Assembly: GCF_964355755.1 (NCBI RefSeq)
Contig: NC_092673.1
Coordinates: forward strand, 21,891,001-21,955,000
Reading direction: 5' to 3'
DNA length: 64,000 nt
Origin: Antedon mediterranea
Lineage: Eukaryota; Echinodermata; Crinoidea; Comatulida; Antedonidae
The first letter of the stretch is position 1. Every line of letters begins with the position of its first letter. The position numbers and the translations under genes were made by a program. The notes below the pieces were generated by a model that did not search any database, had not been told where the DNA came from, and was given only the letters and a program-made list of their open reading frames with translations. This document shows, one piece after another, positions 3,601 to 64,000 of this stretch.

Positions 3601-6578
3601 ATCAGAAATGTAATGAATGGATGGCTAGTTGGTGACAAGAACGTTAGTTGATCATACCCAGTACCGTTTTGATTTTATGATCATTCACATTAACAGCATA
3701 GTCATCCTAGTGGCAATGACAGCAATAGCTGCTATTATACTGAATACACTATCCAGAGGATAACTGTATGTGTAAAGCTCTGTCTACACTATCAAACTTT
3801 ATATGACAAAAATATGTGATGTGCCCATATATGGACATGATTATGTCATACCACTACCATATTTGAGCATATCACAACCATATTTGGGCATATCACAACC
3901 ATATTTGGGCATATCACTAACATATTTAGGCACAGCATACTTTTTTTGTCAGACTAATTTGATAGTGTAGACAGAGCTTATCACTATAACAGTGCATACT
4001 TGGCTATGTTGATATATTCTTAAGTAAAAACAGCTGTAAATCTATTGACAATTCTATGAGGCTGAATTACTTACTGTATACATTTTAAACCGAAATTGAA
4101 TGGTAATGGTAAAACATCATCAAATTTTGTATTTAGTTTATATAGTATAAGTTTTTTGTTTTGGTGTAAATATTGTATAAATTATTGAGTGAGATTAAAC
4201 ATTATTTATGGGATATACTCGGTTTGTATAATAATAATATTGTATAAATTATTGAGTGAGATTACTCGGTTTGTATAATAATAATATTTTTTTAATTGAA
4301 TATTACACTACAGACTGTGTGGGGTTCATTTTGGCATGAGGGCCGATGGGGCTATCACTGTTGTCATTCATTTGTCAAGATGTCGTACTGCACAGGAGAA
4401 GTTGGTAAAACTAGCTTGGCGTCAAGTGGCGCCCTCTCTATGATGGGCCAGGACAGGTTAGAACAGATTGACGATGGCAAACAGAAATCATTAGTTGAAG
4501 TAAGATCACATTTATTTATTTTTTTTTATTAGTATTTATGTTCAACGATTTATATCTTGCGGTAACATCATGTCATAAATCTTAAACTTTGTTTAACCAA
4601 ACAATACATACAAGTATTATAGCAAGCATTGTAATACATGGAAATGTGTTTCATCTGTTGATATAAATGATGAAATTGATAAAATACTAATATATATTAA
4701 AGATGTATTGTGCCCCTGAAAAAATAATGTTTAATGTCATTTTTATATTTCACATAATATTTATCCACAAAAAATGAATCGGAAAACATTTTTATTTTAT
4801 ATACCTGCAAAAAATGTAATTTAAAGCAAAAAATTGTCAAATTGGCTGCAAGCCAATGGGTTTTTGGTTAAATTTGACTATTTATTTTGTCATTTTACAT
4901 TATTTTGGTTCGTTTTTTTTCTCTGAAAGTGATTAACTTTATCAAAACTACAAAAGAACCTATTCAAAGTCTGATTTAATTATTAATCTTTATTTTTGGG
5001 GGACAATACATCTTTAATGTAATTTATCCATTAAATAATAAGAAGATAGCTAAATGAGTTTTACCTTTTGTTGAAAATGATATATGTAATAATCAATAAT
5101 AATTGTTTTTTGTTGTTGCTGTATTAGAGCATTTTTCAAAGCTTATTTATTAAATGGAGTTGTCATGTGATTGGTCTCACATTTGTTACTAGGAAACGGA
5201 AATGGTTTTGTACGTCATGATGAGCAAGTTATATAAAAAATCGTTAAACTTTATGTAGAATGTGACGTTTATGGCAAATTATAAAATGATGGATTGATAT
5301 GTTAAAAGTGGATGACCATAATACAAATATTGAGTATTTCTTTGTGATAATTTCGAAGGATATTTAGATGTCAACTCATGGTAAAACTAAGAGTTTCTAA
5401 TCTAACATTAAAATACAAATTGCCAATGCTAATTTTAATTTGAAATTAATTATCCTAAATGTTTATCATAGCAGTATTTTATTTCCCTTTCTATCTACTC
5501 TTTAATAATCTTATTAAAATGGCTTATAATTTTATGTACTTGGTGGTTCCTTTACAGCTTCAGCAAAAGATTATCTGTATACAGTGTGTAGAATAATAGG
5601 AATGACAAATAAAATATTTATACAGTAATATACACTAAAAGAAATGTTATGGGATATACTGACTGTATAATACAGTATAGCCCATTTCCACTCGTATCAA
5701 TTATTATTTGTATAATACAGTATTATTATTATTATAAATGATACGAGTGGAAATATCAATATTATCTACATTCCAAGAATACAACTCCATAATTATTTGT
5801 TTTATAAGACATCTATTTTACTCAATGGTAAGAATACATTATAATAAATTATATTGTTTACAATTCAAATTGCAGCAACACAAAGAAAAAATTCACACAG
5901 AAAAGACAGAAAGAAAAAGAAAGAAAAAGAAGAAACATAGCAAAAAGACGGATGTAAAATCAAGTGAAGATGAAAGTAGTGAAGACGAAGAAGAAATAAA
6001 AAAGAAAAAATTAAAGAAGGTAAAAAGAATAGAACCATTTTATTTTGGAAAAGTAGGTTGGGAAAAATTCTCAAATGTTCTGTTTGTTCATAAAACGAAA
6101 AAAAATTTTTGTTTTTGTTTTGCATGGGTTTTAAATATATGTATATTTTAAATATAAATATACATTTATATTTTTTTAACATATTTTTTTCTTCTCATTT
6201 ATGTTACAATGTTAAAATTAGTTGCAATAAATTGTCATTTGCTTATACTGTATATACAAACAATAATTGATTTATTATTTCACATTTTTAAAAAATTAAT
6301 TAAAATATAAGTAACAAAATGGCAGTGGTCATAATTCTATTGTGTTCAGGTAGAGAGGCTATAAACTTAAACGAAAACATCATTTTTTTCAGGCCTTGAT
6401 AGCTGAGGTACTTAGACAGAAAGAAGCAGATAAGATTCTTGCAATGGACGAGAGAAAGAGGACATATAATAGCATGCAAACGATGGGCCAGTACAAAGAA
6501 CCAACAGAAGAGGAAATGGAGGCTTGGAGGCTGCTGAAGCAGCGGCAAGAAGACCCTATGGCACAATTTATTTCTTGA
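630..6578 (+). CDS. SLU7: Pre-mRNA-splicing factor SLU7, C-terminal part (5' end outside window)
   Basis: SLU7 is a spliceosomal factor of the second step of splicing that helps choose the 3' splice site. Eight exons join in phase: 630-773, 1123-1190, 2001-2140, 2758-2814, 3295-3399, 4314-4499, 5876-6019, 6393-6578 (TGA), each bounded by AG and GT. They give about 342 residues, matching the last part of the roughly 586-residue human protein. Family landmarks, in order: [105 protein letters not shown], a Lys-rich stretch followed by acidic Ser residues, and near the C-terminus [10 protein letters not shown] and [10 protein letters not shown]. The zinc-knuckle N-terminus must lie upstream. Introns hold MITEs and tandem repeats. 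Identification is very secure; the donor and acceptor choices agree with reading frame throughout. Confidence 0.96.
1212..1375. repeat. MITE family A, complete copy (SLU7 intron)
   Basis: A palindromic element bounded by AAGCTCTGTCTACACTATC and its inverse. The interior carries GATGTGCCCAAATATGG, a central TGACATCATCA and the inverted partner. Fourteen copies or fragments of this family occur in the window. No open reading frame is present. The flanks often read TTA or TAA, compatible with a PIF/Harbinger-type 3-bp target site; that is inference. Confidence 0.88.
1501..1851. repeat. MITE family B copy (SLU7 intron)
   Basis: Bounded by TTAAAGATGTATTGTCCC and, inverted, GGGGGACAATATATCTTTAA, with a symmetrical AT-rich interior that contains GGCTGCCAGCCAGTGGG. 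The same element recurs near 4697, 7400, 33498, 38367 and 60340. Confidence 0.82.
2832..3225. repeat. Three degenerate tandem units of about 130-150 bp (SLU7 intron)
   Basis: The block GCTTCAGATTAGATATTTAG followed by CTGTCGGTCTA appears three times (near 2838, 2958 and 3102), each followed by a related stretch ending in ATTGTACACTACAGACTG or a close variant. It begins just after the donor of the exon ending at 2814. Confidence 0.8.
3775..3980. repeat. MITE family A, copy with internal expansion
   Basis: Ends in AAGCTCTGTCTACACTATC and its inverse. The internal unit CATATTTGGGCATATCAC is repeated about four times, making this copy longer than the others. Confidence 0.87.
4145..4290. repeat. 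Short tandem duplication in SLU7 intron
   Basis: The stretch containing ATTGTATAAATTATTGAGTG and GGTTTGTATAATAATAATAT occurs twice in succession just upstream of the acceptor at 4313. Confidence 0.7.
4697..5017. repeat. MITE family B copy
   Basis: Starts TTAAAGATGTATTGTGCCCC and ends GGGGGACAATACATCTTTAA. It keeps the internal GGCTGCAAGCCAATGGG. It lies in the SLU7 intron between 4499 and 5876. Confidence 0.82.
5684..5754. repeat. Inverted repeat (hairpin) in SLU7 intron
   Basis: ATTTCCACTCGTATCA is answered by TGATACGAGTGGAAAT about 40 bp later, with an AT-rich loop. It may be a tiny foldback transposon; no other function is visible. Confidence 0.75.
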
Positions 6579-19361: not shown

Positions 19362-19516
19362 AAGCTCTGTACATCAAACTTTATGTGGAAAAAAAATGTG
19401 ATGTACCATATATGAACATGATGATGTCATATCACTACCATATTTAAGCATATCACTACCATATTTGGGTACATCACACTTTTGTCATACTAGTTTGATA
19501 GTGTAGACAGAATTTA
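19362..19516. repeat. MITE family A copy
   Basis: Left end TAAGCTCTGTACATCAAACT (a few bases lost), internal CATATATGAACATGATGATG, right end ACTAGTTTGATAGTGTAGAC. Confidence 0.82.
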
Positions 19517-25034: not shown

Positions 25035-26092
25035 TTAAACTTGTAATTTTTTAAATTTATTGGAACATTTTCCTGGAGATGGGGCATAATACAGCTTAAT
25101 ATTATTCCATGGCTTAGCATTTTTATCCATCCAATTACATATTTCAACTCCATGATGGTGGCACACAATTTGAATCAATGTGACCACATCAGCCTCAGCA
25201 TTGTGAACATTTTCTGGTAGTTTTCCAAATGTTCTTTTATATATTTCTGCCAATTTATAAGACACCTTTCTCTTCTTGGAAGGACTGTGTTCATTGGACG
25301 TTGACGACATAACTGGCAATGTATTGTTGTTACTTGTGGGTGAAGAACTGGAAGGTTTGCTCAAAATATCTGGTTTTCTGGTCTGGCTTCTAATTTATCA
25401 TCAATGTCTTGAAATGCTATCAAGGAATCCACACAGAGTACGTCACACGGCAGCGAACAATCAATGTAATTCAACTCAGTTTTAAGTAATGGGAAATCAA
25501 ATCGTTCCCCATTGTGTGCGACTAGACATACAGGTTTTGTCTGTCTATTAAGGAAGGCGTTGATACAATCTACAAGATTACTGTCAAAGCCTTTTTTCTC
25601 ATTCTCCAGAAGAATCGAGTTATCTAGACCGGTCATATCACCTGAATGTATTTGCTTGTTAGGGTATAAACACAGTGTCATCTTATCAACCACCCTCGGG
25701 ATGACAGGAGGACTTGATGTGCTACTTGTTGAACCATTAATGCTTGATCTGTGAACAGCTATCAAGCAAATCTCAGTAATTTTTGGTCTTTCACACGGGA
25801 GTAATGCAGATGACTCTAAATCCAAAAATACAAACGACTTAATTACATTTACATCTCGTTCGATATCAAGCTGTTGCTTACTGGTACTAGCCCTGCTACA
25901 CGATTTTTCGCTAGTAGGCATCGGCCGACAAGAGTAGGAGCTTTCATCGCCGCCAGACCCGGCGTCGTCGTTCGAACTATCATCAATTGTTAATGCCCCT
26001 TCTACTACTAGGCCTAGCATCCGACGAGATCTAGGTGGTGGACTACCTAGGCCTAGAGAGTGAGACGCAGATTTATCTTTAATACCAAGCAT
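25035..26092 (-). CDS. TREX-like 3'-5' DNA exonuclease, intronless, one frameshift
   Basis: TREX1/TREX2 degrade DNA from 3' ends and limit cytosolic DNA sensing. The first frame (26092 to stop at 25361, 243 codons) has an N-terminal low-complexity extension of about 85 residues. Then come Exo I FVFLDLESSALL (D91, E93), PKITEICLIAVHR, RVVDKMTLCLYP, and Exo II LVAHNGERFDFPLLKTEL (D199). The frame shifts by one base in the window 25361-25395. The second frame runs to TAA at 25035 and holds Exo III: SYKLAEIYKRTFGKLPEN, then VHNAEADVV, with catalytic His and Asp. All five DEDDh residues are therefore present. Homopolymers AAAA (25374-25377, minus) and TTTT (25363-25366, minus) are candidate sites. 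No intron signals fit. No C-terminal membrane anchor like TREX1. An assembly error, a polymorphism or an early pseudogene are all open. Confidence 0.85.
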
Positions 26093-27542
26093 AGCGGGAT
26101 CGTAACACTTAAATGTAAAGTCAGTCCTTAATTATAGGCAAAACATTAAATAGAATACGCCACTATCATCTGCTAGGCCCAGGGCGTAATAACGGTAGTC
26201 GAGTTTCCTCTCTTCTTTCTTTGAGTGAGTGAGTGAGCGAGTCGAGTCGAGTAAGTTGGTATTTTCCGCTTGATTGCACACACAAAAAACATGTCCTGGT
26301 GGTCCGTCCCCCCCCCCCCCCCTGGCGGCCTATTTAAGAAACGCCTAACAGCGGTAACCACAACAAACAAACAAAGATGAGATTTGAGTTGGTTGTGTAA
26401 AATAAAATGCATTTTTGGAAAATTTCAGTAAATCTAAACAAGAAATACTTCTTACAAAAAACGTCGCTTGGTTGTTGACGTAACAGTTTTAAAGATATTG
26501 ACCTTAGCAATAATACTAAGTGACAGAAATCGAGTTAGTGGTCTAAAATTGGCTTTAATATTATTTAGACATCATTTTTATTTAAATTATTTATTAATAA
26601 GCACATCATCCTTTACAGATTTATTTTTTCGCGCCGCGGCTCTAGCCAGCTATGTCCCAGGAGGACACATTCATTAATAAGCTGTTTCATAGCGGTAGCT
26701 TTAGTATCTAAGGCTGACAGTTTTGTGAATTTGGAAACTCGACTATAATTTATAGGTAGCTGCTGGACCCAAAAAACGTCCGGGAGAAGAGAGTCTATAT
26801 GAAAGCCTTTGCTGATAATACATATTATTGAGATGTAGACGGAAATCTGTAAAATCTTGTTTAATAAAATAACTTCGTTTTTGCTGTCAACCAGGCCGGT
26901 ATTATAATAAGTCACTGTCAAATAATCATTCGATAATGGTCAAAACTTTATTTTGGCTCTGTCAACATAGGCCTAAAGGGAAGTATTTACAATGACTTTC
27001 TTTTTTATGACTGTCAATCTAGGTCAATGTTATAATAATACGCCGTCAGATATTAAATCATTGAAACAGTCCTGGTAAATTTTTGTTTGGTTATCAGATG
27101 CCGTGGGGTGGGGGGGGGGGGGGTAGGTCTAATCAATTATCGTCAGAAGGTGAACAATCAGTCTAGGTAGCAGCAGCAGATTATTAGGAACGCCTGCTCC
27201 ATTAATTAATCCAGAAAAAGAAAAAGGTTTGTACATTATCTATTTGTTTATTAGCCTTCTCCTAGCACAATTATATTTTCTTTAAAAAAAGGTTTTATAA
27301 GTGGTGTCAACATTTATGATAGTAATGTCACAGTTCTGTGTCTGGACGCAAGTTCATAGACCTACTAGTTATATTATTCATATTAACTGATACTTACTCT
27401 TCATTTACCGTAAAGTTCAGTTTTAATGAAATATATAATATAAATTGGCTTCGTAACAATTAATTAGTGTTGAAAAGGTTAGTTTTTTGGTGATAGGTGA
27501 AAATGGCATGTAACTTCGTAATCAATTTATTTTTTTTGTATA

Positions 27543-27906
27543 AAGGCCCAATTACACTATGACGATAACGACGGACGATAAATATATAGCATGCATTTCT
27601 TTTACATAAACCAAAAGAAATTAGAAAGGTTTTCGTTCTAGACCTATAGGATAATCATTTATGCTGTCTTTGATAAAAATAATGTTTTTCAAATTCCAAT
27701 CAAATGACGTCATGATAAATAAAAACAATAAAATCGCTGTATTGTCACGATATTATTGGTCTTACTAATCATGACGTCATTTGATTGAACGTGTGAAAAT
27801 ATAATTTTCATCAAAGAAATTTTTTATATTTCTTTTGGTTTATGTATTAAAAATGCACATTTGTCTATTTATCGTCGATCGTTATTGTCCTAGTGTATGG
27901 GCCTTA
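27543..27906. repeat. MITE family C, copy 2
   Basis: AAGGCCCAATTACACTATGA at the left, ATCGTCGATCGTTATTGTCC plus TAGTGTATGGGCCTTA at the right. Paired ATGACGTCAT blocks lie inside. Clearly homologous to 7732-8149. Confidence 0.87.
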
Positions 27907-28189
27907 TGCTGTAAATGTTCAATTAATTGATCATTCCGATTTTATTAGTTGGACTCTTGCACAGTTGCTGTCTAATCGTTGTTGTGTAATATCATTTCGA
28001 ACCATATTAAAATCATAAAGAGATTCATATTCCTTAACATGTGGCTGTGCATGGAAGTCTGGTCTACACAAACTCGGGCCCGGGCCTGAAAGTGTTGGTG
28101 AATTCATAATTATACTTAATATTATATTTATAAATATATATATATATATATATATAATTATTTTTATTATACAATTGAAAGCAAAACCC

Positions 28190-29690
28190 GTTGAATCTCA
28201 AATCATTAGGACTAGAAATTTGGCTTATCAATCAAATAAATACTTTCGTTCAAAATGAAACTCCAACCTCTCTAATCAAAAGATTGAACTCGAAAACGGA
28301 CCGTTTTTTTTAATTGGGTATGTTGAAACATTTCAATATTCATTTAAAAAAGTACATTAATTATGGTATTGATCAGTGGCCGGCTATAGTAGAGGCGTAA
28401 AAACCCTCGGTCAATATCATGTAAAATGCACTGTGGAAGGGTCATTATTAAGACTGCAAAATTGGGCTTATCAACAAATAAATACTTTCATTCAAAATGT
28501 AAAATCAAGGCTGAAAAATTGGGCTTATCAACAACAAAATATTTTATTATTAGACGCGATATAACATCAAGGATAATCAGTATAATCATTAATATAGCCA
28601 CTGTTACTAGTTTTATTCTACATGCTAAAGTAAATAAAAATCCACTAGAAAAAACAAGCAAGTCTGAATGTTATGCTTATTAGCCATGTTATGTTTGTTA
28701 CTGTAGGCCTATGATTGTTTGCAATGTCCACATATTATTTCCGTGGGCATATCCATAGTTACAAAAAAGACGTGTGAGGTTCTTTCTTTAGATTTTGAAG
28801 AATGATTTGTGTTACAGGTTGACACAAGGGTCAAATGCTCAAGATATCGGCTAACGCCATGGGACCCTTGGCTTATCAATGAATAATAAATATAGTACGA
28901 CTTTCGTTCAATTGAAATCGGAATCTGACCGTTTCATTAAATTGGGTGTGATTAGGCCTAAACATATAATAATTTATTAAAAAGGTACAATAAAAACAAA
29001 TGCATCAGAGGCGTAAAGAACCCACGGTCAATATCATGTAAAATGTATATGGTAAGCACTGTGGAAGGGGTCATTATTATTAAACTGGAAAATTCGGCTT
29101 ATCAACAAATAAATACTTTCATTTAAAATGTAAAATAAGAATGCAAAATTGGGCTTATCAACAAATAAATACTTTCGTTCAAAATGTAAAATAAGACTGC
29201 ACAATTGGGCTTATCAACAAATAAAATACTTTTTTTTCAAAATGTAAAATTAAGACTGGAAAATTGGGCTTATAAACAAATAGATACTTTTTTTCAAAAT
29301 GTAAAATTAAGACTGGAAAATTGGGCTTATAAACAAATAAATACTTCCGTTCAAACTGTAAGAAAACATTTTTAAAATATAATCCTTAAGCTCTGTCTAT
29401 ACTATCAAACTAAATATGATGTGCCCATATAATATAGACATGACGATGTCATATCACTACGATATTCGGGCATATCACTACCATATTTGGGCACATCACA
29501 CCTTTTTTGTTAAACTTGTTGGGACAGTGTAGACACAGAACTATGTGATCGAAACATAAGTCGGAATTGGACTGACGCGATTGATTTAATTGGGTATTTT
29601 TTATTAATGTAATGATTCATTAAAAACTATAATACCGATACGCGTTTGGTATTGATCAATGGTGCAAAAAACCCTGAGAAATAATGTTAT
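28190..29690. repeat. Diverged segmental duplication with 56-bp satellite
   Basis: Blocks with GAGGCGTAAA, AACCC and CGGTCAATATCATGTAAAAT recur at about 28395 and 29008, with a weaker trace at about 29660. Between and after them the unit CTTATCAACAAATAAATACT (56-bp period with AAAATGTAAAAT and AAAATTGGG) is repeated about six times at 29085-29360 and twice at 28440-28560. Small ORFs here are repeat artefacts. Confidence 0.8.
29388..29543. repeat. MITE family A copy, inserted at the edge of the satellite
   Basis: TTAAGCTCTGTCTATACTAT at the left; a degraded right end with TTGTTGGGACAGTGTAGACA. Confidence 0.78.
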
Positions 29691-33600: not shown

Positions 33601-36600
33601 GTAGTCTATATCGTGCCTAGCTTACCTGGATAAACCAACATAAGCCTCTCTCCCCGACGAGAGGTAAACATTAGTTTTATTTTTGTTTTTTTTTCTACAG
33701 AAGTGAATAACTTTATTAAAACTGCAAAATGGCCTATTTAAAGTCTGATTTTATTAATCTTCATTTTTCGTGTTTTGGGGACAATACATCTTTAAATAGG
33801 GTCAAATAACTTCTCTCGATCTAATTTAATCTAATTGATCATGTCAAGACATCACTTTTAAAACTTTTACAGGGTTGCTGGAAATTCTGCATATATTCTT
33901 GGGACATTAGCAGAACATCATGTTGGACAGACACGAGTATTGGCGCTCATCTATGGCCAACATGAACACAGCATCCTTGTTGATCTCTGTAACATGCTAG
34001 AATATGATGATTCTGAGTCCGTGATGAATGCAGCTGGTACCCTAGGCACATTGGTAAGAAGGATTGAGATCATGATAAAAAGCGGGGCAGGGTTGGCATT
34101 TATCAATATTTGCTAATACTTTTGCTTAAGCTGAAATATTTAACTTACGAACTTACAGTAAGCTTATTTATCAAGCAGAAAAATTGTCTTAAAAAAATGT
34201 TTACTTGGCATGTGTGAAAAATGGAACACTAGAGGGCAGAAAATTTTGTCTTAAGACGAAAGATCTTTGCTTACGTGTATACATTGGCTTTTTCTATTAG
34301 GGATGGCGGCGCTATAACGTTTTATCTTCACATTTTCACTCCCAACAAGAGAGGGTTCATTCTGGTTACTATGCTTTTTAAGATAGAGAAATAACACAAA
34401 AGTCAGAAATACATGAAAATCATTATCATATTAATCAAGGATTTAAGGCAAAGTTATAAAATTTGTTATGCTAAGCAAGTTTGATCAATCCGGCCCCTGG
34501 CAATGTTTGAAGTATTGTTGTATGTAAAAATTAAGCTAAATAAATTGCTAATAATAATTATAAATATTTTTATTATTTTAAATTTTATCTAATTCAATTT
34601 TAATTATTTGATAATGGTGAGCAATCAGACTTGTTGGTTATTTAGAAATGAAAACAAATTCACCAAGTGCCACCGCAGCATTGGCTCTTGCGTGTAGTAA
34701 AACTATTAACATTATGATTATCACTGATCATAATCACTGTTGTTTATAGCAACTATGGAATGTATATGATTACTTGATCTATAGTGTTTATTGACTTCAA
34801 TGATTGTATCTGTTGACAAGTTACTAAAATTGTGGTAATTTGGTAGTTAATATTGCACAATATTTATTTAACCTTATTTTAAGTCAGAAATTTGTTCTGA
34901 TAAAATTTAACAGTAGTATTACAGGTGATAAAAATATCAGAATAATACTTTAATGATGTGCTTGAATAATATTAAGCTACTGTACCTATCCTATTTAGGT
35001 CCATAAGGCTCTGTCTATGTTATTAAAGTAGTTTGACAAAAAAAGTTTGATGTGCCTAAATATGGTAGTGATATGCCCAAATATGGTAGTGATATGACAT
35101 CATCATGTCCATATATGGGTACATCACAATTGTTTGTAACATAAAAGTTTGGTAGTGCAGACAAAGCTTAAGGCTGCACATTTTCTTTGTCTCCAGTGAA
35201 CACAGTCTTTGGCCAAAACTTTGCATTGTTCCAATATTCCCATCCCAATGCCAATTCTCTCCCTTTCCACCGTCTATCCTAATATCAAGTGATCTTCCAT
35301 CCACTGCTAAATGTGCAATTTGTTCAGTGTTTGATAGAAATATCCCTGATATTGTATTGCATACATTTACAGTTCAGGCTCAAATCTACCTATATTGCAT
35401 ACTTGATACCTATTGTTCAATCGACTTATAGCACCGGTACTATCCAATGTTCAAAAGCACTTGATAAAGTTATACAGGAAATGTTTCTGTGTACAATTGT
35501 GTTTTAAGACGTAATTTGAAGATATTGATGTTTTGTGATGTCTTTATGTTTACTAAAAAGCATTCTTATTGGTTTGGCCATTCTTAATAAAGATGATCAT
35601 TTTTTATTTAAAGTTTTAACATTTTTCTTTTATATTTAATTTTCATTTCGATGATGATACACAGGCAGAGACAGCAGAGGGCCGAGCCTGGATGCTATCG
35701 GAACAATGCATGGACACAATGATTCACAGAGTAATGGCGTTACTAACATCTGAAAGCATGTGGACCGCAAGCAATGCTGCCCTCGTGTTGGCCAGGTTGT
35801 CTATTTCAGAAGAAGGTTGCCATCATTTACTTCATCATCAACAATCACATCAACTTCTCACTCGGCTAATACAATCACTCGGTGTTGATGAAGCTGGTAA
35901 GTATACAGATCATGTATTTTTGCATTCGTTAATACACATCGGTATCAAAAAATATAATACAATATCAAGTGCAACCAAAAAGTTGAATTATGCCACTCAT
36001 TTGAAATTGGTAAATGACAGAGTGTTTGGTGTGTTAATAAAAAATATTGGTAAGATATGGTATGGGACTCTTGCCAAATCTGCTCGTGGTACTGTATGAT
36101 CAAAATTTCCATATTTCTTCTCATTGCGAGTTGCATGTGGTTTAGGAAACCACTACCATGTTTCGGCACATCACACTTTTTTTTTCAAACTAGTTTGATA
36201 GTGTAGACAGAGCTTAAGACTGCTGAATGATTGTGTTTCATGTTGGTTCTTTGTGTTTTTCCATCCTGTTGTGCTTTAAATTCAATTTCTATTTGGTATA
36301 CTAGGTACAGGCATGAATGCTGCATTCGCAGTTGGAAGAATTTGTGACACAGAGGAAGGACGAGAGAAACTCATAAAACACCAAGATATTACAAAAATGG
36401 TAAATAGTTCTATCAGAGAAACTGATGCCTTATACTGTAACTGGGCACATGACCTAGTGTGGTGGTAGGGTCATTTCACCCGTTTGTGTCAAGATCTATG
36501 TTTCTGAAAACGATTTTCTAGTCCATTTCGTGCTGTTATCTATCAATTTTTGTTTTGGCCTTATGAATAGATTTAAAGACTCAAATTAACACCATGTTTA

Positions 36601-39600
36601 ATATTAAATTTTAAACTTTTAGATTTCTGTTTTAACTGATATGTTGTCCAGTAAAGATCCTGGTTGCAGTAAGAACGCTTGTTTCGCAATAAGCTGCCTT
36701 GCTGGCAACGAGGAAGGGCATGCGCTACTGCTCAATCATCTGCGATGTGATATCATGCTGAGGCGTCTTGCGGAACAACTACACTCAACAGACCAAGAGA
36801 CATCCTGGTTTGCTGCTATGTAAGTTACTATTAAAAAACATTGTTAAAGTAGTATAGAGTGGAGCTGTAGCTTGGTGATTTAGATGTTCAGCTACCGATT
36901 ACAGGGTCCTGTGTTCAAATCCTGTCAGATTCTTTCTCATGACAGAACAACTCCGCTCCCAAAGACTTTGTTTTGTTTGTAGAGCATCTTGTGTATACTA
37001 TATGTTTGTCTTTGTGATTATTTAAGCCACTTTATTAGCTAATAGCCTTAACGGCTACATGTGGCTATCTGGCCCCTCCAGGAGACTTGTCTCCAACTGT
37101 CATAAAATAATTTAACAAAATAAAATAAACTTATATATCTCAGAAATACTGCCTAAGGTGGACACATCAGACTCATCCTACATACATACAAGATGAGTCC
37201 ATTATATTGATTCCACTTTGAAAATGTAGACATACTTGATCATCAACAATCACTTTTGTGAATAATCAAAGCATGTGTGTGCCGACAGCTTCCCCCAGTT
37301 GATATAAAGGGCACTTCCTTCACATGCTTTCACCTAAACCCCCACCGAAAATTCTTGCTGGAAAAGTCAAACGGTTGCATTTGAAAAAACAAAGGCTGTG
37401 TAGAATACTGTTACTTTCTGATGCTGCCAAGTACTAATTTTAAACTCGTCTATTCCTAAATCAGGAGAATCCTGACAATTGCCTACTTTGTAGGATTCCC
37501 ACCTTAACTCTTTGACAACCCTGATAACAGTTTAGAAACCTGAGCAATATACGTTTAAAGGTTCTGTAGAATCTCTATACTTGTTCTGAATTCATTCTGA
37601 TATTTTCTGTTCTTTCAGGACCCTTCGAACACTTGCAAGTAAAAAGAAAGGTTGTTTAGTACTACGTGATCATGTAGTCATTGTACCTGCATTACAGGTA
37701 TAGAGTCTATTTTTAGACAGCATTTGTTTTTTCTTGGTAGCTTGAATAGCTCAATGCAGTATCACTCAATCAGGGATGTAATCTATGTAGCCATAGCCTG
37801 TACTTAGGGGAAGGATACTACAGAAACAAAATCTTACAACTTAAGTGTTTAAAAAAAGTACAGTATATAAATTCACACTCTACAAAGTTGCAATAGAACT
37901 CAAAACAAAGCTTTAATTTCAGTCAACTAAAGAATTCAGTATAGACTTCAATCGTCTTCACAATTACTCTTATAATCATAAAAATAATAAATAAAAAATA
38001 AAAAAAACTTGTTTTCTATAATGGGTAGAAAGACAAAATATTGACATTGATGTTAGTAAACCAACCAGTGGTAGAAGACCTGGTTACATTTTGGAAAATC
38101 TTTTATTTCTTTACTTCAACAATATTTTTTTATAGGAAATTAATGGAGCAAGTGGAATTTCCAACGACCTTCAGGATGAAGTTGTTTTGACATTAGAGCT
38201 TTTGAAGAAACTTGACAAACCAAATCCACCAGTGCTGGAGGTCAAAGGTCCCAGGGAGCTTATGGTGACCTGGGATATAACAACACTCGAGAGTGGACTT
38301 GACATCATTTATATGCTTTACTTAGGTAAAAATAAAGTTTTACCTGAAACCTACCTGCATACAATCTTTAAAAGATGTATTGTCCCCCAAAAACCAAAGA
38401 TTACCGTAATAAAATCGGACTTTGATTATATTATTTTGTAGTTTTAATAAAGTTGATTACTTTCGTAGAAAAAAAAACAGAAAAAATATATGTTTTTACT
38501 TATAAAATGACAAAATGAATGGTTAAATTCAACGAAAATCCCATAGGCTGGCAACCAATTTGACCATTTTTTGCTTTAAATTATAGTTTTTTAGGTAAAT
38601 ACTTTTTTTTTTGGATCCAATTTTTGGTCAAAGTGAATAACTATCATGTGACATTAAAATGGCATATTCAACAAAAATTGTTTTTATAATGATTTTTTCA
38701 GGGTGACAATACATCTTTAATTGCAGGAATATTTTTGTTGTCTTTCTTGTGAAACAAATGGTCAATATGACTATAACCTACCTCTATTTAGGGACCAGGA
38801 CAATTTTTAGTGTGCCAAATAAATCCATATTAACTTTAAAAATTATTAAAAACATTTTTGACAGATAATACGGTGCTCTACAAAGGTGCTGAGACCAGCT
38901 TTTTGGCAACCAACCTCAAACCAAATACTTTATATAATCTACAATTGCAATTGAAGACAGAAGGTGATGAAAGTCAGCTGAGTGACCCTTTAGAGGTCAC
39001 CATGGATCAATGTGGTAAAAAGTTCATTTTTATAACTGATGCCTTAGTCTCCCCCAACCTTAAGCTCTGTCTACACTATCAAACTTTATGTGAACTAAAA
39101 TGTAATGAGCCCATTTATGGACATGTTGATGTCATATCACTACCATATTTGGGCATATCACTACCATATTTGGGCACATTACACTTTTTTTTAAAAACTA
39201 GTTTGATAGTATAGACAGCATTAAAGATAAAATCACATCCAGTTTATTTATACAAAATGCTAACAAGCAATTTTTATATTTTTTAAAGAAATATTATCAT
39301 TCAATTTATATAAAATAAAAGGTCAACTTGTCTAAATTTTCTAGCTCTAGTGATCTAATCTAATAATTAAGTATTTTCTGAATTCATATTTTAAAATTAA
39401 TAGTGAACTCGAGTGCCATATTTTGTACCATAGACTTTGTTTATGTAGAGCATCTTGTGTATATGTTTGTAGGGTAAACAGGATTGCCACCTTTGAGAAG
39501 GATAGTGAATGAATTAGCAATTTGCCTAAATATACAACCAAACAAAACAAAAAATGATCACATGTTGTTGGTGGGCTTATACCTGAGACCAGGTTTATAC

Positions 39601-42600
39601 TGGCTGGGCTTATACCCGCATCAGTATGGTACAATAAAATATTTGTAGCACTAAATTTGTGAATAATCATTCGAATTCACAATTTAATTTTCTTAAGAAT
39701 GAATTATTAAATAGGTTCATAATTTTTTATACTAAAGCACCTGATGCCCCAGAAGATTTGCGAATCCTAGCGGTTTCAACATCACAGATCAGAATAGGCT
39801 GGTCACCCCCAGCAGCTGTTAATGGCGGGTTAAAAGGCTACATAGTTTATAATGGTAAACAGCAGATTGAATCCACTACAGAACTATGCAGTATACTCAG
39901 CTCTCTTGCGCCCTCTACAAAGTATGATATTTACGTAAGTATTGCGGTCGGAAATCAAACAAGCAAACTTCATCTTAACTATGAAATTGAAAAAAAAAAA
40001 TTGAAAAACTATGAACTTTTTATGTTTTTACGTCTATGTTTGTGTATCTTGTAGATTTGAAAAAACCCCAGATCCAAAATAACCTTGCACATTTTGCACA
40101 TGATAAAGTCTATTCCATAAGACTGCTTTAATTTATAAAATCTCAGTTTTTCACTTAAGCACTTAACTATTTTGACTTAACCAAAAAGACTCATAAATAT
40201 CAGCCCTCTTTTTTTATTATACCATGCTATTGATATACAACTTACTGTATATAAAGTATTTAATATAGAATATATTAAAATTAATATTTGTCATTACTAT
40301 CCACATACAATCAAATTAAAAATATATATACTTGTCAAAGAGATTTTTTAAAATTTGTTGTTTTTCGCCATTTTTATGTGGAATATACTTTTTATTTTAT
40401 AGGTGTGTGCCTTTAACCACAAAGGAAAAGGACATAAAGCCTGTATCTCAGCAGCTACCAGTGAGCTAGGTAGGCAGTATATTGCAAATCCCCAATGTCC
40501 TAATCTCTATCAAGAATGTTTTTTTTTCAGACATAAAATAAAGTGATGAATATAACTTTTTTAAATGTATAATAGCTCATTTCCTGTAAGGAAGAATACA
40601 TAAAAAGGTTAACCATGAGTCTAAGCTTTGTCTACACTATCAAACTAGTTTGAAAAAGTGTGATCTGCCCAAATATGGTAGTAATATGGTCAAATATGTT
40701 AGTGATATGACATCATCATGTGGGCACATCACATTTTTTGTCGCATAAAGTTTGATAGTGCAGACAGAGAATTACAAGGCTTTGCATAACTAAGCTCCTG
40801 TAGTCCACTCAATAATTCATAGTATTAGCAGAAACAAGCATACCACTGGCACTTACAGATATTGCCTGCTTAGAGGTAAAATATAAGATTTGACATCCCC
40901 AAGGGAATATTTTGCTCAAAGGCTGAAGGAAATATAATTCTTGAGAGCAAAATATTATTTCCCGAAAATTAATTAGTCAATATCATCATACTCAAGGAAA
41001 TATACGATTTACGATCCTCGCAGCAGTAGTCATGTGATGTGATGGTTTCAACCAATCACGTTTACGTATTTACGTAATATAATTTTTTATTTACCATAAA
41101 ATGTTTCTTCTCTGTCAAGGTGGTTATTTTTTTTCACTTGCTAAACTCTGTTTCTGTAATAAAGGTAAACATGCACCTGGCAAGCCAATACTGAATGTCA
41201 GAGGTCGTAATGAGATTCATCTAACATGGTCTCCACCCGAATCTCCTATTGGTCGTTTGCACAAGTTTGAGATATCTATCAATGGAAAGGTAGTTTACTC
41301 GGGCACAGAGCTCTGCTTCACGGCTCGTAGGCTTGTGCCAAACACCGATTACACATTCAAGGTAAACATTTTCATTTTGTATTCAAGGTTTGTATCAATC
41401 TAAATATATTAAAGAAATAATTAAATAGACTGTTACATAATATTTGTAATCTAATCTTGTTAATGCACCAATCAAGTCTTTAACCATTAAGCTGTCACGC
41501 TGATTAATGTAAATTGATCGGTATTAATATACAAATAATGAATGATTATGAGATAGTGAGAATATTTCATGAATTAAAAAATGTACTGCTTTATTTTTAA
41601 CGAAGCGGAGTCAAGTTAAAAGTAGAGAAATCAATTTTTCATTGAAAAAAATTTTTGTAAAAAACGTGGGTATATTGTAGGTGTACATCAATTGTACTGT
41701 ATACAGTATACATATTTATGTCAAAACAAATCGAAATCTTTTTGAAAAAAATTTTAAACATTGTATTTTAAACTTCATTAAAGGTTATAGCAGTGACAAG
41801 TGAAGGCAGGTGTGAAAGTGAGCCTGCACGGAAGAAAACTCCTAAAGATGAATGTAAGTGTAACTTTACATTATTAAGGGGACAGGCCCTTCATGCACTT
41901 GTCAATTATATGACCCGCTATACGACCCCTAGGAAATGTGCGTCATACCTTTTGAATACCATGACGCACCCCTGTGTCAAAAAAGTGACTTACCTTCAGG
42001 TGACCATGATGCACCCATTTTGAAGCATTGAGACCATTGTTCATGATATGATGGGTGTTTGTTGATGTTGATTTTGTTTCTTTTAGTCACTCCTGCATCA
42101 ATAATTATTTGTAAATGATACACCCATAACACACCTCTCTTGGGGGGTTGTATAGTGGGTCATACAATTGACAAGTGCATAATAGAGGTGTCTCCTGAAT
42201 AATATAAGGGTGTCTTGTGAATAGATTTCCCAAATGAGGAGGAGGAGTTTTACTGTTATAAATTATTCATTTATATTACTGAGAATGATTCAATATTCAA
42301 TATGTAGTAGGTCACTTGTTAAAATAGAAATGTTCTGGTTGCCTTTAATATTGTGTTGAAGTTTGTTGTTTAATTATCATACATCAATATAATATTTTAA
42401 AAATCATGTTGTTTTTTACTGTAGATAATGTACAATCAACAGCTCCCATATTCTTTAGCCATCCACACAAGATTACGGATCAAGATACAGGTACAATTTT
42501 TTTCTGCCATAATTATTTTGCATAAATAAATAAATCAGAATCCTTTAATGTTTCCCCTAGATGAAGTATCATCATTAATTTTAGAATTGTATTATCTCTA

Positions 42601-55900: not shown

Positions 55901-58739
55901 ATCTGATGCAGCGTTCAAACATAACAATAGTCTATGTTTTCAAGGTTCGAACAAACCTTCTTTTTCCTGAAGATTTACCCTTTTAGACTACACCTACAGC
56001 AGAGTGCTAGTAAAGATTTTTGAAAAAAACTAACCAATAAGCAAATTGGAAATAAATTAAACTATGCTTTAAGGATATGAATATTCTCATTCATCCAGGT
56101 AGTATTGACCTACTCTGCCTTGACCCCGTCACTGACCAAACACCACAATTCCATCATTTGGTCTGATGACCTTGATAGATCGTGAAATGTCGCTGTTTAC
56201 TATCTTTCTAAACTACTGTATGCCTTCACTTACTGAGCCACTTGCACCATGGACTAGCACTTTTTGCCCAGCTTTTGCTTTTGCTCTGTAATAAAAGAAA
56301 AACATTTAAATTCAATTACTCTGTATAGTCTGTTAGTATTTTCTGTTATACACTCTCAAATACAATGCATAGAAGAGTATCACAACTCATTCTTGAATTG
56401 ACTCAAAAACAATGCATAGAGTAGAATCTTATTCTTGAATTCACTCAAAAACAATGCATACAATTAAGACAATGAAAGGCAAAACTGAGAAAGCTGGTGG
56501 AGGAAAATGGAATACTAAAGTCTATGAAATTTTGTAAAAATATATTTTTTTTTAATTTTACAGAGGTTACTACTAGCCTAGAGCCAACCTAGGCCTGCTA
56601 CTAGCCTAGAGCCAACCTAGGCCTGCTACTAGCCTAGAGCCAACCTAGGCCTGCTACTAGGCTAGCATAGGTAGGCACTAGATCCGTGTCTGAATAGGGT
56701 ATAATTTAGTTTCACATTACTTTCATCCAAATTCATGTTATTGTTTATGTCTCAAATTCACCCATGCTACGTGACTGAACAAGAATAAATACACAATATC
56801 TAATGAAATGTTTATCTAAAGATGATAATTACGAGACCTTAATATAAGAGCACGGTAAGCAGTGAAATATGGAATGCCCATTGCTGCTCCTTGCTGAAAT
56901 GAAAGCTCTGACGGCAAGTTAAAAACATCATTCTCATTGGCTACTGTGTACTCTGCATATGAACCACTCACAGTCTTGTATGTAAATACTCTATCACCTG
57001 GCTACGAAATATACAAAATAACAATGTTAAACCTGGAAAAAGTTTAATTAAAACCATAGAGATCTCTATGGTTTTAATTAAACTTTTTAAAATCAACTAC
57101 TGTAGGTAACAGCTATTAGTGATGCGAACAGGGCAGAGACTTCCCAAAATCCACCATATATCTGTTTTTTTATTCGTTAATAATAAAAACAACACATATG
57201 TTATACCTGTCAAAAATATAATAATTCAGTGTCCAATCCAATGTGTGAGACATTAAATCAAAATTGTATATAGCACCCCTTATGTTATAATAACTCAAAA
57301 TAATCGCAAAATACGCCCTCTATGTTTAATTCTTTGCCAAAATAAGTTTTGCTTTCATGTACTACCTCAACCATAAATACAAATACATAGGCTAATTATG
57401 CTAAAATTAATTAAATAACGTGTACTCCTAGGCCAGTTAATTTCAAAATAATGTTTTTCTGAATATTCTTTATGGATGCGCAAGAAATTTAAAATCGGCC
57501 CTCATGCGCGACATCTGCACATAATGCACAAGAGCTGACAGGTGTAATATTACGGCAGTAGGCCCAGAATTTTGGAAAAAAATTGGCAACATGAATTAAT
57601 TCTTGGTAAAACTTTCCAGCATAACAATTTCATCCTTACTTTGAATTTTGTGACTTCACCACCAACTTTTTCAACAAGACCAGCGCAGTCGTTACCTGGT
57701 GTCCATGGCAACGCTGGTTTAATGTGGTAAGTGCCTTGCCTCAGATACGTCTCAACAGGGTTAACTCCCGCAGCATGTACTCTTACTAATATCTAATGAT
57801 ATTATTAAAGATTTTGACATAATATGTACATTACATTAGCTAGTGTTGGATACGCATCCTTACGCCCGTATTCTTAAACCTGACTTTAGTCGTAGTTCGA
57901 AGTTCGACTTGAAAAAGTCGTAGTTCGAGCTATTACTTCAAATTCGATTAAAAAACGATGTAGTCGAAGTTTGCAGTTCGACTTAATGAAGTCGAGCTTC
58001 TAGTCGAGGTTACAATGGCTGGTGCAATACGTCTAGTAAATAACCAATCAGACAATCTTACGAAGGGCGACGACCCTGGATATGCCCCTGGATTTACTGA
58101 AGCGCAAAATATAAACATTCGCCGCGATAGGCCTAGGATACCTTTTTTATGTTTCACCGTGTAATTCAAAATGCAACAAAAGTGATACGTTTATTCACGA
58201 CACGTTTTTTATAAACTATTTAGTCGACCATTTAGCCTGCCCCCTCCAGGACTAAAAAAATCGATCAAAATCCGTCTCGATTAAGTCGAGGTTGGCCTGA
58301 TTTAGTCGGTGATTTAGTTGAAGTTCGGTTTATGAATTAAAATGACGTCATTTTTTTAGTTTTAGCTCGAACTACGACTAAAGTCCGGTTTAAGAATACG
58401 GGCGTTAGTCCCGGAAAAAAGTATACAAGACGAGAGATGAGATGTCACATCACTACCATATTTGGGCATATCATCACCATATTTGGGCACACCACACTTT
58501 GTCAAACTAGTTTGATAGTGTAGGCAGAGCCTCATACTTTGATCCCTGTCGGTAATTGCTATATTCTCTACCTCCTGAAAAAAATGGAATGCAAAATGCT
58601 CAGGTATGGCATGGTGACATGCATTTATAATTGATAGCTGGTTCCAAACCTGTTTTTCTTTTGGTTTGGGTATTGCTACATCTGTATCAAGACGTAACAC
58701 TTCAGGCCCACCAAACGCATGCACTCTAACTGCTCTCAT
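52970..58739 (-). CDS. CRYZ: Quinone oxidoreductase / zeta-crystallin
   Basis: An NADPH-dependent quinone reductase of the medium-chain reductase family, lacking the zinc sites of alcohol dehydrogenases. Seven coding exons: 58650-58739, 57640-57792, 56838-57001, 56234-56285, 55491-55640, 54428-54529, 53416-53511, plus the last, 52970-53131 (eight in total). All phases fit and give 322 residues (human 329). Landmarks: [76 protein letters not shown], the nucleotide-binding [11 protein letters not shown] split over two exons, [42 protein letters not shown]. The start MRAVRV at 58739 is favoured: GCCACAATG is a good context, directly after an acceptor-like CTTCTGCAG. An upstream in-frame ATG at 58772 would add [11 protein letters not shown] but abuts a transposon end. 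It converges with the ARM-FN3 gene. Confidence 0.94.
53548..53723. mobile_element. hAT-like MITE, family G, 5'-truncated (CRYZ intron)
   Basis: Shares AGTGGCCCTCCAACG, TTTAGCCAGTGAGCGCTCAT and terminal GCCACTG with the copy at 50350-50528; the left terminus is missing. Confidence 0.8.
53780..53851 (+). tRNA. tRNA-like gene, anticodon ATC (Asp-type or pseudogene)
   Basis: A full cloverleaf of 72 nt can be drawn by eye: acceptor GCCCCAG with TTGGGGC, D stem GTCT with GGAC, anticodon stem TCTGC with GCAGG, loop ATATCAA, four-base variable loop, T stem CCGAG with CTCGG, loop TTCGAAT, discriminator G. The A box (TGGTCTAATGG) and B box (GAGTTCGAATC) are intact and TTTTT follows two bases later, as for a Pol III terminator. 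The anticodon reads ATC, which would decode GAT; eukaryotes normally use GTC for Asp, and position 32 is A. It could be a SINE head or a tRNA pseudogene. It lies antisense in a CRYZ intron. Confidence 0.7.
55030..55270. mobile_element. Possible tRNA-derived SINE (CRYZ intron)
   Basis: GGGTTCGAGGCTACC is B-box-like. The body GTGCACACAGCTCAAGAACC, GAGTAGGGGGTTACCGCGG and TGGGCGCTTTGGGTC is GC-rich and unlike its surroundings, and resembles invertebrate SINE bodies. Ends are not clear. Confidence 0.4.
56568..56665. repeat. 28-bp tandem repeat, three units plus a partial (CRYZ intron)
   Basis: CTACTAGCCTAGAGCCAACC followed by TAGGCCTG, identical in three successive units. It is rich in the CCTAGG/TAGGCCT motif that recurs throughout the window. 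Confidence 0.93.
57037..57088. repeat. 52-bp perfect palindrome without spacer (CRYZ intron)
   Basis: AAAAAGTTTAATTAAAACCA then TAGAGA and the exact inverse, centred on GATC. It starts about 35 bases upstream of a CRYZ exon acceptor. Confidence 0.95.
57862..58405. mobile_element. 544-bp inverted-repeat element (CRYZ intron 1)
   Basis: ACGCCCGTATTCTTAAACC at the left and GGTTTAAGAATACGGGCGT at the right; GTCGTAGTTCGA and TCGAACTACGAC continue the arms. Flanking TTA on both sides fits a 3-bp target duplication. The interior has several further GTCGA-rich inverted blocks and no transposase. Confidence 0.88.
58441..58532. repeat. MITE family A, 3' part (CRYZ intron 1)
   Basis: GATGTCACATCACTACCATA to AACTAGTTTGATAGTGTAGG, directly next to the element ending at 58405. 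Confidence 0.78.

Positions 58740-62047: not shown

Positions 62048-64000
<1,953 letters not shown>

Follow-up and report, generated by a model that had tools for sequence, protein, structure and literature searches.

The TREX-like gene of the crinoid Antedon mediterranea poses the question of whether the animal carries a broken copy of this exonuclease gene, or whether the break belongs to the assembly or is bridged during expression. The gene lies on the window's minus strand, the window being the whole stretch of 64,000 nucleotides analysed here (C4:21891001-21955000), and two open frames share the enzyme. ORF1 (25361-26092) runs from an ATG at 26092, the first in an open frame that spans 26131-25361 overall, to an in-frame TGA at 25363-25361, and encodes 243 residues including Exo I (D91 and E93) and Exo II (D199). 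ORF2 (25035-25394) is in the -1 frame relative to ORF1 and encodes 119 residues, comprising a Ser/Asn-rich linker, Exo III with the catalytic His64 and Asp69 of the VHNAEAD motif, the C-terminal end and a stop. Both frames are open over a 34-nt frame-change zone (25361-25394) that contains the ORF1 TGA. Between them, the two frames hold all five catalytic residues, and no single continuous frame carries the three motifs or encodes the full enzyme. The sequence-only reading had given the same residue numbers and taken the catalytic set as complete across two frames, and it was also right that one frame could not encode the enzyme, ORF1 stopping at 25361. It had the frames abut at 25361-25395, which places the site correctly, though the frames in fact overlap.

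Similarity search against the PDB using phmmer revealed that ORF1 residues 84-235 match TREX1/TREX2 chains with a best E of 2.5e-37, and that ORF2 aligns with the subsequent part of these chains, with a best E of 1.6e-10. The homology extends over the exonuclease domain in both frames, with the DEDDh residues found in Exo I, Exo II and Exo III, which bears out the initial view of a TREX-like gene whose frame breaks once, after Exo II and before Exo III. When the local sequence was simulated 200 times, no open frame attained 256 residues, and 119 residues were attained in 30 of the runs; the ORF2 call therefore rests on homology rather than on length. Judged from these alignments, the locus is a TREX-family gene by descent, which we do not file as a functional enzyme, and the gene itself is of an ordinary, known kind that would encode a 3'-5' DNA exonuclease.

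Compared to mammalian TREX1, the gene has its five catalytic residues placed in matching motifs, and the first part of its exonuclease core (25388-25843) is 46% identical to the mouse core; it differs in the break that separates Exo II from Exo III, the lack of a C-terminal anchor region, an 83-residue N-terminal extension and the DLESSA sequence of Exo I. This last motif, at 25805-25822, has one residue extra relative to the DLEATG common to mouse TREX1 and PDB 9l8a. The N-terminal extension (25844-26092) is of low complexity and has no homologue in the phmmer search against the PDB, the matches starting only at residue 84. ORF2 continues for 11-15 residues beyond the end of the alignment, lacks a hydrophobic tail, and so has no anchor of the mammalian TREX1 type. 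The sequence-only reading had counted both ends of the protein as departures from mammalian TREX1, which carries less weight in the light of the wider family. Placental mammals, marsupials and monotremes each have TREX1 C-terminal domains of their own, and the nearest mollusc homologues of the mammalian protein align with its N-terminal part only (PMC12206365), so that a missing anchor is no peculiarity of this gene. Likewise, extended invertebrate TREX homologues exist, such as a scallop protein of 538 residues (PMC12206365), and a long N-terminus is not odd by itself.

The best match is PDB 9l8a, deposited as exodeoxyribonuclease III and TREX-like, which is 49% identical over the first part of the core (E 2.5e-37) and also matches the Exo III part, but is a single continuous chain with a short linker. 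TREX2 has the same catalytic core and, like the window gene, no C-terminal extension, with E values of 4.7e-35 for ORF1 and 5.4e-10 for ORF2; TREX2 is a mammalian paralogue, and we assign the window gene to the TREX1/TREX2 family and not to either member. In addition, the DEDDh nuclease of the KolobokD transposon has been described as TREX-like (PMC9587614). In contrast to that nuclease, the window sequence has no other copy in the genome, and no transposase was found among the adjacent open frames included in the scan; its single-copy state speaks against a transposon origin of the KolobokD type. No relatives of the gene were found in viral contigs or phages.

The sequence-only reading had proposed a search for a second TREX paralogue, which was run on the genome (354 Mb, 18 contigs) and found none. 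At the DNA level, the only match to the TREX locus was the locus itself. Neither protein half found a further copy (E <= 1) apart from a weak match on contig C7, in a search that treats each exon separately and can overlook weak matches. The C7 match was rejected as a TREX paralogue, the translation of its frame being unlike an exonuclease. The profile PF00929 detects other DEDD nucleases but not the window gene, and hence is no test for TREX copies. On these sequence comparisons, a second TREX is likely to be absent from the genome. The same genome contains a tandem cluster of about seven STING ligand-binding domains (C1:19073747-19107246), as well as an expansion of Mab-21 (cGAS-like) domains with about 44 matches, clustered on C1, C3, C5, C7 and C10.

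The window has several further features. A tandem array of a 63-nt unit occupies positions 1-530, with 8.4 copies at 98%. A long hairpin at 27540-27910, whose inverted arms are nested at 27553-27897, represents a foldback or MITE-like repeat that has amplified recently; it is present in at least 40 genome copies at 98-99% identity and in over 1000 first-look candidates. A 21-nt unit (CATATCACTACCATATTTGGG) is dispersed on both strands as single or short tandem copies, with 21 window matches against 0 expected; it occurs at 1261, 3847-3930, 9064, 19428-19469, 23490, 29450-29491, 35055-35096, 39133-39174, 40668-40709, 51555, 51937 and 58446-58487. At 62048-63388, a U2AF65-like splicing factor with RRM domains is encoded by one unbroken open frame of 446 codons, which has no strong genome match except itself.

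Apart from the single break, the TREX gene has the appearance of a constrained one. Beyond the ORF1 stop, no further stop or frame change was found over about 350 codons, and simple modelling predicts a further lesion (95%) within 2-3% neutral divergence in a gene free of constraint. Odd-one-out changes, counted at alignment positions where the other two of the three proteins share a residue, number 14 in the window protein, 21 in mouse TREX1 and 15 in 9l8a over ORF1, and nine, 11 and eight, respectively, over ORF2; the window protein shows no excess of unusual substitutions relative to the other two. With neither a second lesion nor an excess of unique changes, general decay of the gene is rejected, and both halves would have been constrained until very recently, or are so still.

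We propose that the animal has one TREX-family 3'-5' DNA exonuclease gene, namely this one, which would have been under normal constraint until very recently, and that a single small difference, lying after Exo II and before Exo III, changes the frame in the assembled haplotype. The product of the assembled gene would be a protein of 243 residues that stops before the catalytic His and the final Asp and misses the closing part of the fold. Lacking these, it should be inactive, as we infer from the positions of the motifs. That the assembled break is a real and recent null allele of the sequenced individual appears to us marginally probable, and both the reality and the recency of the lesion are drawn from the arguments on constraint and assembly quality rather than read directly from the locus.

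The strongest competitor is a base-level assembly or consensus error, with the gene intact in the animal and encoding an ordinary TREX exonuclease, to which we give somewhat less than an even chance. Such an error would leave behind a conserved single-copy gene with undiminished constraint on both halves and without a further lesion, as observed here, and these observations fit it just as well as they fit a recent null allele. Moreover, the presence of STING and Mab-21 families would lead one to expect that TREX is kept. The sequence-only reading, which had left lesion and error undecided, was right to do so. Its suggestion that the lengths of the A and T runs at the junction favour a simple indel does not hold, as the zone contains only A/T runs of four, and 0.83 runs of at least four are expected in any 34 nt of the window. 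Runs so short and so common favour neither reading by themselves, and lend an assembly error no support. The window also shows A/T runs that extend smoothly to 13 and G/C runs that reach 15; such smooth long homopolymers give no sign of homopolymer compression, which counts toward a real lesion.

As a control for frame breaks elsewhere in the assembly, we used the 7tm_1 receptor family, which has many single-exon members. Among its 148 matches, 15 suspicious ones were read. A frame change was seen in two of them and an in-frame stop in one, and these three belong to a single tandem array on C3 (31.57-31.60 Mb); the others were intact or resembled exon ends. The array itself (C3:31557034-31654124) is probably made up of real pseudogenes, with two frame changes and at least one in-frame stop among them. 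The lack of breaks in the receptor genes read outside this array gives a slight lean to a real allele without proving a lesion, for the control rules out only error rates that exceed a few per 100 kb of coding DNA and its top-scoring matches are biased to intact genes. Altogether, we lean slightly towards a real allele over a base-level assembly error.

A short intron that joins the two frames and leaves the gene intact is very unlikely. At about 40 residues, the linker that connects the halves would exceed those of mouse TREX1 and 9l8a, and the shorter linkers of these PDB homologues would be compatible with the removal of an intron, as would the codon statistics, which do not prove the linker to be coding (frame-2 score of 1.0, within the non-coding range, when frames 1 and 2 are compared). 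One non-consensus GC-AG join (25387 to 25275) would give an open protein with a short linker. Nevertheless, among all GT or GC donors and AG acceptors enumerated near the junction, no plausible intron was found. The last GT before the ORF1 stop falls inside CVDSL, a motif conserved in mouse TREX1 and 9l8a, so that its use would delete the motif, and no GT lies between CVDSL and the stop. The sole donor that keeps CVDSL-AFQDIDD is the GC site GAA|GCCAGA, which scores -1.2, far from consensus, and the acceptors are weak. The linker (25360-25271) has 43% GC, compared to 20% and 38% in its two flanks, which is unlike an intron of an AT-rich genome.

Programmed -1 ribosomal frameshifting, which would yield the full enzyme from the assembled sequence as a regulatory step, is scarcely credible, for in spite of the -1 frame relation and the 34-nt overlap, neither the slippery heptamer nor the stable structure of such a site is found: no X XXY YYZ heptamer occurs in the ORF1 frame within the overlap, the downstream RNA folds no better than shuffles (z 0.35), and to our knowledge no TREX uses programmed frameshifting.

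The break would matter most if the real allele, which we slightly prefer, were also common. No report of TREX loss in invertebrates was found in the literature searched. As the STING cluster and the roughly 44 Mab-21 domains are kept, a true fixed loss of TREX would be interesting. It is unlikely, though worth considering, that in an animal with these expanded families the only TREX was lost very recently or is now being lost, which would make it a natural TREX-null lineage or the carrier of a common segregating null allele. If the break is an error or a rare allele, the locus adds one more single-copy invertebrate TREX gene and serves mainly as an annotation warning. If the break is real and common, A. 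mediterranea would be a natural TREX-null animal whose genome has many STING and cGAS-like genes, and would offer a test of how invertebrates tolerate cytosolic DNA without TREX.
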